Assembly: GCF_025602895.1 (NCBI RefSeq)
Contig: NW_026516305.1
Coordinates: 62,001-126,000, forward strand
DNA length: 64,000 nt
Direction: 5' to 3'
Source of the DNA: Polychytrium aggregatum
Lineage: Eukaryota; Chytridiomycota; Chytridiomycetes; Polychytriales
Position 1 is the stretch's first letter. Each line of letters begins with the position of its first letter. The notes under the pieces were generated by a model. It ran no database searches and was not told the DNA's origin. It saw only the letters and a list, made by a program, of their open reading frames with translations. Both the position numbers and the translations under genes were made by a program. Positions 2,825-16,941 of this stretch are shown here, piece by piece.

Positions 2825-4152
2825 GATGAAGATGGGGGAGTTTGGGTCGGGAAGCCGAACGAGGCTGAGAAGAGGGGTGTGCGCTTGAGGAGCTGGTGTG
2901 CAGCTGAGGAGCTTGGCTTGGAGGCGGATGAGGGGCTGAGGTGTACAGAGCAGATGGAGCACATGGCGGCAGAGAGCCGGCTTTATAGGCCGCGCAACCA
3001 GAGATGCAGGACCGGGGGGGAGCCGCGCGAGCCGACGTGGACGCCGGGCATGTCAGGACGGCTCAAGGCGACGCAAAGGCGGTCGGATGACGCCTTCCGC
3101 GCAGCGAATCGGAAGGGCGGGCGGACATGGGACGGGCTGCGCACCGGCATGTGATGGCCGGGGGGTGGCGGTGGGGGACGGGAGGGCGGGGCGCAGTGTC
3201 TGTGAGGTGTCTGTGAGGTGTCTGAATTGTGTCTGTGAGGTGTCTGCGCTGTGTCTGTGTCAGCGACCGCGAGCCGAGTGGTTCCAAGCGCCAAAACCGC
3301 GATCCCCGACTGCGACAATGGCAGACGCGCTCCGCACGGGCGTTTTGCGTCATGGCCCGTCAACAAGGGTCGACACAGCGCGCTGCATCAAAGTTGTGCG
3401 CGTCTCGGTGCGTTCTCGGTGCGCTCTCGGTGCGTCTCGCTGCGTCTCGGTCCCGTGCGTTCACGCCAACATCGGCCTTCTCGCCGCGCCCTCGCCCCCG
3501 CCCTCGCCTCGCCCCTCTCGGACCTTGCGCCCTGACACCTTCAGCGCCCTCCCCGGCGCCGTCTGCATGTCGTCCTGGGCCCTCGGAAGGCCCTGCTTCC
3601 TGCCGGCCGGCTCATGTCGCTGGCGGGGATGGTGCAAAGGACCGCCCAGATCGAGATCCGGCCGGCGCAAATGTCAGCAAGCCCGCGCGATGGTGCAATC
3701 CCCGCGACGTCGGGCATTGCGTGCGAGATGCTTGGTGATCGGCGGGGTGAAGACTCGCGAGCTGCCCCCGATGGCCAAGACCCACATCCGTCGCATTTCC
3801 CCCTCGCTGCTGCAGGTCCCAGGACACACCATGTCGCCAATGCCAGGGCCCTTCCCACGGCCACGTCCCTCTGCATGCATGCACGCAACCACACACCACT
3901 CGCCGGCAACCATTGTCAGAGACCACCCGGTGGGCATCCCTCCCACAGCCTCACCCGGCCTGACGACAAAGGCGGCATGTGCCCGGATGCATTACTTTCG
4001 TCGTGTCGCTTCATGTATTGGTCGACGCTGAGGGCGTCGTGATCGGCTCGCTTGTTTTCGCCGGTTGTCTGCAGACCAGCTTGTGTCGGCAAGCTTGTTT
4101 TCGCCGTGGTCGCCTGCCCATTTTCGTTGCGGTCGCCTGCCCAGAGCCACAT
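2825..4152. other. Intergenic, no gene seen
   Basis: Contains the TATA box of the small gene (2981-2987) and a degenerate run of TGTCTGTGAGG-type repeats at about 3196-3262. Frames here (for example 3087-4031 plus) are Arg/Pro/Ala-rich and look like GC-rich noise. Confidence 0.5.
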
Positions 4153-14058: not shown

Positions 14059-15533
14059 ATGTCTGTCCTCTTTCGCTGGGCCATCGCCCTCGTCCTCCTG
14101 CTGTCCCAGGCAGCTGCCGATCCAACCCTGCAGTATCTGCCCCAGGTACGGCGCTCGTCTCTGGAGGAAACACACCCCGCATCGCTTTTGTGTCTGCTGC
14201 ACTCGACTGACTCGACATCGACAACTGCTGGATGCTGCTTCGTTCTTCGCCATCCAGGGCAACTACCAGTTTCCCTTCTACTCCTCTGTGCCCCTCGGCA
14301 CCCAAAACACCCAAATCAAGCGCCTTGTCTTTGCCCTGCACGGTATGTTCTCTCTCCCTCTCTCCACTGCGGCGCTCTGCCGTACCGGTCGTCTTCCTTC
14401 GTTTCTGCATCCTCGTCTCCCAACTTCTGTAGTGACCGGCCTGCTAACGTCCTCTCCGAACCCCAGGCATCGGCGGTAACGCTCTCCAGGACTTTACCAC
14501 CGTCACTGGAAACTTCCCAAACATCATGTTTGAGACTGCCTTTGTCACGCCCTACTTTTACTGCAAAGGCGATTCGACTGTCGCCTCCAACGCTCTGACC
14601 TTCTGCGCCGGCTGGCTTGACGGCACGGCGAGCGACCAAAACAGCACCCTCTATTCCTTCGACATGATCGACCAGCTCGTCCTGCTCGCCAAGAAAAACT
14701 TCCCATCCATCAACTACTACATCTTTGCAGGCCACTCTGCCGGTGGCCAGACCATCCTGCGCTACGCGTCCTCGACCCAGATCGGCATCGCCGAGTATCT
14801 CTATGCCAACGTCAAGTACATTGTTGCCGGTGCCGGCACCTATCTCTACCTCAACAGCTACCGTCTCAACAGCAACGTCGACCCCACCACTATCTGCCAG
14901 TCGCTGGACAACTGTCCCTTGACCCAGAATGACTTTGTGCAGAACTACGTGCCGCCGCCGCCCCGCCAGTCATGCAGCGTCTATGACAGCGGCAAGTACG
15001 GTCTCTCTAGCGTCAACGATCCCAGCCAGCCGCCAAACTATGCCCAGCGTGCGACCGCTGACTGGATCTTCAACTCCCTCGTCGAGCGCAACATCACCTA
15101 CATGGTCGGCGACCTCGACACCGTCGCCAACTACAAGCTTGACGTTACCTGCTCTGCCATGGCCCAGGGCCCCGCCAGTCGCAAGATGCGCTTCCTCATC
15201 TTCTCGCGGTACATGCAGATCTTCTTCCCGGTCTACCAGCAGTACCAGAACCACAAGATCGTCCCTGGCTGCCCTCACAGCGATCCTTGCATCTACTCGA
15301 GCAAGGAGTTTGAGCTCGAGGTGTACTCTGGCACGACCATCAATCCCCCGGACTTGCCTCCGGCCTCGTCTATCACTGACAGCGGCTCGCTTCCCGATTC
15401 CACCCCCGTTGCCAAAGTTTCTGGTAACGGCGGCTCTACCAGCTCGGCCCCGTCGGCCCTCCCGTCCTCGGTGCTCGTGGGTGCATGCACCGTTGCCATC
15501 GCGGCGGTGCTTTCCGGGCTCTGGGCTTTGTAA
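14059..15533 (+). CDS. Secreted, probably GPI-anchored alpha/beta hydrolase
   Basis: Three exons (14059-14145, 14258-14342, 14467-15533) join in frame to 412 aa. The N-terminus MSVLFRWAIALVLLLSQAAA is a signal peptide. Then follow a beta-strand block (IKRLVFALHGIGGNA, the oxyanion-loop position) and the nucleophile elbow YYIFAGHSAGGQTI (GHSAGG, Ser nucleophile). The protein has several cysteines and many N-glycosylation sequons. The C-terminus is Ser/Pro/Gly-rich followed by SSVLVGACTVAIAAVLSGLWAL, a typical GPI-attachment signal. It probably acts at the cell surface; the substrate is unknown. The acid and His of the triad cannot be assigned with certainty (GCPHSDPC near the end is a candidate His). 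Signal peptide and first intron boundary coincide closely. Confidence 0.75.
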
Positions 15534-15959
15534 TGATCCCGCACATCTTCTCCTCAACCCACGTGGCCCCTCGGCTCGTTTGCTGTGCTGCTGTCATACT
15601 CCCACATGTCATCCCATTATACGTTTCCCTTTCTATCTTTTTCCTATTCCCTCAGGTATTGCCCTTGCGCTGCGTCGACTGTGTGTGTGTCCTGGCCTGG
15701 CTGCTCGGCACAATCGCTTGTTGCTTGTCAATCAATGCCGACTGCACCCACTTCCGAAACCCGCTGGCTGTTCGGCTGCCCAGAGCGCCGCGAATACATC
15801 ATCTTTACAGTCAATCCAATAAAAAAACGGGACACCCGTGATTTTGACGATTGATCAAATATTTTGTTACCCAATGCAATCGCGCGCTGGCCATGATCAT
15901 TCTGTGATTTGAATCAAGGGCGTCATTGTGGGAATCGCTCCCAGCTCAAGATGCGCTAG

Positions 15960-16322
15960 TTGAGCACCACACCAAGTCCCAAGATCCGTGTGTGCTCGGT
16001 GAACGAGTTCAACACATCCCAGGTGTGCTCACATTGTCGGGAAGCCAAGCGACTCGAGAAGGTCGAGCATCTTGATGTCGAGAAACCACACTTTGTCCGG
16101 AGCTGTGCAAGCTGCCATACGCTGTGGGATCGAGACATCAATGCAGCCAGGAACATGATCTCGGTATGCCAGTCGATCATCGCCACAGGAGATCGACCGA
16201 GTGCATTTAAGACTGTGCTCCCGAAACCAACCAAAACAAAGAGATTACCAACGAAGACAGGAGTGCAGTGCCATGGCCTACCCGCTGGGCCTACAGTCAG
16301 TCAGCGGGCTTCAGATATCTGA
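15960..16322 (+). pseudogene. Fanzor (eukaryotic TnpB-like) C-terminal fragment
   Basis: The frame has KIRVCSVNEFNTSQVCSHC, later FVRSCASCHTLWDRDINAAR and then NMISVCQ. This is the C-terminal signature of TnpB/Fanzor nucleases: a VNEF-x-TS-x-x-C-x-x-C first zinc knuckle, a second C-x-x-C, then the RuvC-III block W-D-R-D-x-N-A-A-R-N with its catalytic Asp. A stop at 15957-15959 closes the frame upstream and nothing resembling RuvC-I/II or the N-terminal domain is found, so the gene is broken. Fanzor proteins are RNA-guided DNA endonucleases carried by diverse eukaryotic transposons. Two further relatives lie at about 29400 and 47690. Confidence 0.8.
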
Positions 16323-16326
16323 AGCC
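16281..16326. repeat. Adjacent stem-loop and 20-bp perfect palindrome
   Basis: CCCGCTG (16281-16287) pairs with CAGCGGG (16302-16308). It is followed directly, overlapping by two bases, by the perfect palindrome GGCTTCAGATATCTGAAGCC (16307-16326). Both lie between the Fanzor C-terminal block and the right terminal repeat. In TnpB/Fanzor elements this is where the guide-RNA scaffold is usually encoded; that role here is inference. Confidence 0.6.
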
Positions 16327-16364
16327 AGAAAGGGAAAGTGTCCCGTTTATTTCTGGACCGACTG

Positions 16365-16941
16365 TAGATCCGCGAATAGCTGTTCTGGCTTGCATGCATG
16401 CGTTTTGCACACCGAGTAAACTCGTTCTCTGCCGCCTCGGTGGATGGCGAGAACCACGGCAACTTTGATGCCGAGCAGTCTCGCCCTATCACCGCCGTTG
16501 CCGTATCATAATCGCCGTTGCCGTATCATAAGCGCTGTTGCCGTATCAGCGCCATCATGTCGTGGGTTGTCGCATGACGCGCCGCATCCAATCCACCGGC
16601 CGTCCGAGCTCAAAAAGACAAGCCTCGACTGCTGGCCGCAGATTCCTGCCTGCCCTCCATCGCACCGTCGCTCTGTTGGGCTGGCAGCAGACAGCAGCTC
16701 TTTGCGCTCACAGACCTCGGTCGTCAGCCTCCTCGGACCATTTGGCAATATCGGCCTCTCGGGCGGCCGCCTGTGCATATTGCCATCCGCAGTCTTTCGA
16801 AGAGCACAACAACCGCAATCGCACCCACAATCGCAATCAAAATTGCAGCCATCACTGTACCGCTGCATCTGCATCTCCATCTCCATCTGCATCCCAGTCT
16901 ATCCACGCCCACTCGACGACACCCGTTGCCCGGCTTGCGCT
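16365..16941 (+). other. Upstream region of ADCK2-type gene
   Basis: About 575 bp between the transposon remnant and the first ATG of the kinase gene. It includes short CCGTTGCCGTATCATAA repeats at about 16494-16546 and CATCTGCATCTCC repeats at about 16864-16892. Open frames run through it but lack coding character. Confidence 0.4.

Follow-up and report, generated by a model that had tools for sequence, protein, structure and literature searches.

Fanzor genes in mariner elements have been in print since 2013, when SPu-1, PUl-1 and PGv-1 were described (Bao and Jurka, PMC3627910). SPu-1, from Spizellomyces punctatus, is a Fanzor1 element of ~2.1 kb that carries Fanzor only (633 aa), and PUl-1 and PGv-1 are Mariner elements with both a transposase and a Fanzor1 gene (PMC3627910). 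The motif definition of Fanzor1 is D-X(125,275)-[TS][TS]xx-C4-X(5,50)-RD (PMC3627910), and the DPG in RuvC-I, a glutamate before the zinc finger and the TDG in WED are likewise Fanzor1 definitions (PMC10711439). The TnpB search expression of the latter paper has 120-160 residues from DPG to E and 12-18 between the CxxC pairs. Its Fanzor1 guide RNA (reRNA) has three stems, includes the terminal inverted repeat (TIR) and the target duplication in its scaffold, and runs ~15 nt beyond. Our comparisons draw on parts of four papers (PMC3627910, PMC10711439, PMC10432273 and PMC12633428). The window, that is, the whole 64,000-nt stretch of Polychytrium aggregatum DNA that was analysed, contains a 561-bp element which is very probably a MITE-like, non-autonomous internal-deletion derivative of a two-gene Tc1-like transposon, one that encodes a Fanzor1-type nuclease downstream of a DD34E transposase.

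The short element and its full-length relative

The element lies at C6:77806-78366 of an assembly of 64.7 Mb and 418 contigs, ~270 bp downstream of a frame with its stop at window positions 15531-15533 (by eye). It is 561 bp long with its TAs, has 557 bp from TA to TA, and reads TA-CAGTCAATCCAATAAAAAAACGGGACAC ... GTGTCCCGTTTATTTCTGGACCGACTG-TA, the last bases being GTGTCCCGTTTATTTCTGGACCGACTGTA. Its features, in window positions, are as follows.

15806..16366, + strand: entire non-autonomous element including both flanking TAs (sequence, genome copies, repeat pattern, layout)
15806..15835, + strand: left TA and left terminal inverted repeat; first bases TACAGTCAATCCAATAAAAAAACGGGACAC
15806..15902, + strand: left end in common with the full-length element at C63:30802, 88% identity over 97 bp
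15893..15907, + strand: transposase-start remnant, consisting of ATG, three codons and TGA (by-eye comparison with copy L051)
15903..15960, + strand: stretch in common with copy L054, unaligned to the C63 full-length copy
15960..16319, + strand: Fanzor C-terminal remnant, 120 codons (TTG after TAG), stop at 16320-16322 (PF07282; motifs by eye)
15978..15987, + strand: second deletion junction, CCCAAGATCC
16292..16366, + strand: three-stem guide-RNA-like 3' module (prediction), in whose closing stem TACAGTCAGTC pairs with the terminal GACCGACTGTA
16307..16326, + strand: perfect palindrome GGCTTCAGATATCTGAAGCC, 20 bp, the middle hairpin of the module
16338..16366, - strand: right terminal inverted repeat and right TA

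A repeat finder scored the inner 15 nt of the ends as an inverted repeat, 93% complementary, and when aligned out to the TA with one gap the ends are alike in 25 of 30 columns, i.e., they are imperfect inverted repeats. The end pattern TACAGYSNNTCCANNANRAAAYGGGACA matched the genome 195 times forward and 202 times in reverse, 397 in all; the count is a lower bound, since variants like the C63 right end escape the pattern. Since the same pattern read backwards gave 0 + 0 matches, the ends occur far beyond chance, and a chance origin of the repeats was rejected. Among 100 listed ends there were six inward-facing pairs, with sizes of 201, 504, 504, 646, 647 and 888 bp. TA stood at both sides of all eight elements mapped, partly by construction, as the search patterns contained TA; the flanking TAs are a putative target duplication of one TA. 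No target motif beyond TA was common to ten sites compared by eye in Fanzor orientation (the eight mapped plus L036 and L041). At one site, L056, the bases before the TA read CATA, like the published TAM of SpuFz1 (PMC10432273).

When 40 of 1,502 candidate matches were scored, six covered all 561 bases. They fall into pairs on near-identical contigs (L001/L002, L003/L004 and L005/L006, with 99.4%, 99.9% and 98.6% identity over 3.5 kb), and because the flanks are common to the paired contigs, the 561-bp form has three independent insertion sites, not six, among the matches scored. Joined-flank searches of the assembly for an empty site, made at three sites, found none; two returned only the occupied place, for which the assembly has no other allele, and the flanks used in the third are repeated elsewhere.

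Comparison of both alleles at the window site gave 20 differences in 3,561 positions. Fifteen of the differences are inside the element (binomial 6e-9), a density 16 times that of the flanks (15/561 versus 5/3,000; 15948-16247 in the comparison with L002). At 183, 395 and 399 the window allele carries the bases of copy L019, at 229, 239 and 240 the second allele carries those of L030, and several other differences match none among the copies compared. Interlocus conversion from dispersed copies would explain part of the differences, as would mis-assembly or mis-polishing of repeats. Downstream of the element, a 20-bp unit is present in three head-to-tail copies at 16488-16547.

Searching the genome with the ends led to full-length copies, as the sequence-only reading had proposed. 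The element at C63:30802-34590, read whole, is 3,789 bp long with both TAs and consists of left repeat, transposase, Fanzor and right repeat. Its first frame, of 325 codons (310 aa counted from ATG), is intact, and the product matched DDE_3 at 6.4e-24 and an IS630 transposase model at 1e-34, over the cut-off, with 34 residues from the second D to the E (DD34E). Judged by its sequence, this protein is a Tc1-like DD34E transposase. There were at least 150 DDE_3 matches genome-wide, and DDE_3 genes were found just inside ends of the same kind, e.g., at C63:30802, C63:45903 and C2:38416. PF03184 (DDE_1/pogo-type transposase) had no match, nor did the controls, so a partner of this type may still be present.

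The second frame, of 884 codons (855 aa counted from ATG), is also intact, and by eye its product has the same motifs as P0003, an 850-aa Fanzor copy on C2. P0003 matched PF07282 at 7.8e-10 and contains the whole Fanzor1 pattern, with D582, TS780-781, C784/787/810/813 and RD819-820. DPG is at 582 (RuvC-I), E777 is six residues before the zinc finger, and TDG is at 525 (WED); the spacings of 192 residues from DPG to E and 22 between the CxxC pairs exceed those of the TnpB search expression. Because the AlphaFold2 model for the Fanzor was too poor to use (mean pLDDT 33.3) and a sequence search matched no Fanzor structure entry, the name Fanzor rests on the motifs and PF07282. Fifty-three long Fanzor matches were scored of 1,399 candidates (67 rows, with 14 short N-terminal pieces excluded), and 40 of the 53 had no stop listed inside the match. 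In viral contigs, with a scan that reaches close relatives only, one stretch fit the pattern for the Fanzor query and 10 stretches for the transposase query, and none was confirmed.

A second transposase-Fanzor lineage was seen in L052 and L053 (C22:12900-15000 and C35:588540-590000). There a frame for a transposase, whose C-terminus looks altered by eye, precedes that of another protein, and the N-terminal part of the L052 protein has 37% identity to the first Fanzor over 128 aa.

In the short copy, the frame at 15960-16319 matched PF07282, the Pfam TnpB/Cas12f zinc-ribbon domain, at 2.1e-11, over the cut-off, and the NCBIfam TnpB model at 6.6e-7, under the cut-off. By eye, the remnant retains the displaced RuvC-II catalytic glutamate, the four zinc-finger cysteines (C4) and the RD; of the Fanzor1 motif pattern, the short copy keeps only the part from the glutamate onward. 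These results bear out the sequence-only reading's description of Tc1/mariner-like inverted-repeat ends, flanked by TA and 557 bp apart, around a Fanzor C-terminus in a copy without its own transposase.

The predicted 3' module

The remnant's stop codon falls within the 20-bp palindrome. Three stems are predicted in the last 75 nt: TACAGTCAGTC with GACCGACTGTA closes the fold, the palindrome is the second stem, and AGAAA..UUUCU is the third. This 3' end is kept even in the 201-bp copy. Folding was scored on pieces of 70-76 nt, the strong-scoring ones having been chosen to start at the internal TAC. The module of the short copy gave a z of -4.63 (200 shuffles), and those of L070, L013, L023, L054 and L005 gave -7.08, -4.52, -4.79, -1.90 and -0.70, respectively. 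For the diverged right end of C63, in which the middle hairpin differs in sequence, z was -3.02. A search for right ends found 64, or 33 distinct ones after duplicates were dropped, its pattern missing the diverged ends of transposase-bearing copies. The first and last bases pair mutually in the predicted fold of 24 of the 33, and in eight of the remaining nine the closing stem contains, by eye, a single additional A.

From folding predictions and by analogy, the 3' module in full elements is somewhat likelier than otherwise to be a guide-RNA scaffold, and it is possible that the short copies still express a guide RNA. An alternative, to which we give slightly less than an even chance, is that the module serves transposase binding or has a structural role in the DNA. 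Many DNA transposons have subterminal palindromes. Covariation over the 33 right ends was no better than in shuffles: RNAalifold gave 0 of 21 pairs changed on both sides; for the named three-stem structure 1 of 744 cells was changed on both sides, which 205 of 500 shuffles reached, and its covariation score was at shuffle level, being reached by 417 of 500. Longer pieces of the 3' end also folded less remarkably (z of -2.27 and -1.08). On the other hand, the pieces chosen on the Fanzor side fold well in most copies tried, whereas two left ends folded as a comparison do not (z of -0.35 and -0.20), and the layout resembles that of the three-stem Fanzor1 reRNA with its TIR and target duplication, as far as the latter is described in the part of PMC10711439 used here.

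Origins of the short copy and of the CACTA-like composites

The left 97 bp of the short copy parallel the C63 left end down to the transposase ATG. BLASTN against the C63 element placed bases 1-97 of the short copy on that left end, 156-182 on 3115-3141 (27/27 identical), 171-457 on 3456-3743 (92%) and the last 48 bp, 514-561, on the right end (79%). Bases 98-155 (58 bp) had no match, and 458-513 aligned only under looser scoring. The 888-bp copy L054 (C35:73065-73952) has the same left part as the short copy (95% over 181) and the same first junction into the Fanzor gene, and it is without the second deletion. C63 carries CCAAGATCC twice, 327 bp apart, and L054 carries CCAAGATCA and CCAAGATCC; because CCAAGATC is present on both sides of the second deletion, slippage or repair between short direct repeats is its most likely origin. 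Since the right end of C63 is diverged over the last 48 bp, the immediate parent belongs to another subfamily than the C63 element. By these alignments the short copy arose from a transposase-Fanzor element through two or more internal deletions and is no record of capture. Capture had been thought visible here at base level; what the short copy shows is loss, and the intact element already carries both genes.

We propose the following course of events. A two-gene Tc1-like element, with a DD34E transposase and then a Fanzor1-type nuclease downstream, would have undergone internal deletions that took out the gene for the transposase and the greater part of that for Fanzor and left the ends in place. 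Full-length copies would then have supplied, in trans, the transposase that moved the short copy into TA dinucleotides, and the retained 3' module would be the scaffold of the Fanzor guide RNA. It is very unlikely that instead an unrelated Tc1-type MITE independently picked up a Fanzor 3' piece, given that an intact element with both genes between such ends exists and that the short copy's left end fits the left end of that element as far as the transposase ATG. At least two left-end types (TACAGTCAATCCAATA.. and TACAGCGTTTCCAAAATG..) are joined to one Fanzor right end, which speaks for independent capture; because both join the same right end, we conclude that ends of different subfamilies recombine.

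Internal deletion accounts for the short copy; Fanzor is also found in larger composites of another kind. In 13 of 20 larger regions fetched (L031-L050), similarity continued ~300 bp beyond the right repeat; the 13 regions are 12 sites, L034 and L035 being identical. Among the 12 examined, seven composites had both ends definable. Their lengths range from 1.55 to 3.73 kb, and their ends resemble CACTAT / ATAGTG, with variants; an example, in Fanzor orientation, is L034 3693-7426. Six of the seven have identical 3-bp flanks (TTG, TCG, TCA, TCG, TCG and TGG), and with an eighth, L031, where the flanks by eye are TTT and TTC and do not match, the count is six of eight. CACTA/EnSpm elements have CACTAT..ATAGTG ends and 3-bp target duplications. 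The composites are like them in both respects and unlike them in that no Transposase_21 gene adjoins the listed ends: the genome has 29 Transposase_21 matches, 28 of them over the cut-off, and none was seen by eye within 10 kb of 100 listed of the 122 CACTAT ends.

Three composites compared with C63 contain 43 to 53 bp of the transposase gene's 3' end, the Fanzor gene or part of it, and the Tc1-type right repeat. A left Tc1-type repeat was looked for inside the composites and none was found; in L049, a left repeat of another type lies just outside the truncated left boundary, facing away. Some composites retain a long Fanzor frame, of 893 codons in L034/L035 and 915 codons in L049. As the composites hold a transposase 3' piece, Fanzor and the right repeat without the left one, their make-up indicates that a CACTA-like element acquired a Tc1-Fanzor element truncated at its 5' end, a second capture, and that the piece has multiplied there. 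The sequence-only reading had named full-length copies with boundaries outside the repeats as an outcome that would speak against it. Copies of the C63 type end at the repeats, whereas the separate CACTA-like class does extend beyond them, the right-hand Tc1-type repeat lying ~300 bp inside the composite boundary.

There are 122 CACTAT left ends genome-wide at up to 2 mismatches. On contigs C1-C72 an exact right repeat was found at most 5 kb from 19 of 32 of them, and for three more of the 32 there is a Fanzor copy whose repeat is a variant (C1:211459, C13:961197 and C10:78240). Of the 53 long Fanzor matches, at least 28 have a CACTAT end 456-1005 bp before their start, and a transposase gene precedes at least 8, the counts being lower bounds drawn from 47 of 150 listed DDE_3 places and 100 listed of the 122 CACTAT ends; none among the matches listed has both neighbours. 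Despite the large share of long Fanzor matches held by the composites, the idea that the 561-bp copy is a fragment of one is scarcely credible and was rejected, as the short copy is bounded by repeats and TA of its own and possesses a left Tc1-type end, which is missing from the composites, and as its flanks, read by eye, contain neither a CACTAT end nor sequence of the composites. In L047 and L048 (C268 and C148), a 5'-truncated Fanzor frame runs upstream, by eye, into WD40-repeat-like host-gene sequence, possibly a fusion or a nested insertion.

A further idea, which we consider improbable, is that short copies are mobile guide-RNA genes, such that Fanzor supplied by another copy would cleave the allele without the insert and favour copying of the insert into it, and that the guides of the composites would aim Fanzor at CACTA copies without Fanzor. 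If so, a transcript past the right TA would carry insertion-adjoining DNA as guide, and all CACTA-like composites would have nearly one and the same guide, taken from CACTA-internal sequence. In the literature searched, which most subscription papers lie outside, no report was found of guide-bearing short Fanzor copies or of Fanzor carried by CACTA; EnSpm was named in one work of the Fanzor literature searched, for other elements, and neither EnSpm nor CACTA occurs as a word in the main text of PMC3627910.

Comparison with known systems

The single-genome series, the capture by a CACTA-like element and the putative scaffold kept in short copies are above routine, and the short copy itself is ordinary, a MITE-like relative of a mariner-Fanzor element. 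One genome holds an intact transposase-Fanzor element, Fanzor in a second kind of transposon, and short copies with the ends and a putative scaffold, so that Fanzor's role for its transposon becomes approachable through copies that differ in having the nuclease or not and the scaffold or not.

As SPu-1 is described in the parts of PMC3627910 used, the elements here share with it a Fanzor1 frame between TIRs (33-bp in SPu-1), putative TA target duplications and multiple copies. Unlike SPu-1, the full element here, of 3.8 kb, adds a transposase to a Fanzor frame of 855 aa, and the short copy lacks an intact version of either gene. The closer likeness by the same source is to PUl-1 and PGv-1, in which a Mariner-like transposase and Fanzor1 likewise share one TIR element with TA, although these come from other hosts and the likeness is one of description, not of TIR alignment. 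A further likeness is that Fanzor-only relatives bear TIRs of Mariner elements, as PUl-4 does (PMC3627910). Finally, as in the SfAV Fanzor1 reRNA of PMC10711439, as far as that paper was drawn on, the putative scaffold has three stems and takes in the TIR and the target duplication; the SfAV reRNA comes from small-RNA sequencing, whereas the scaffold here is a folding prediction, made in copies without a complete Fanzor gene.
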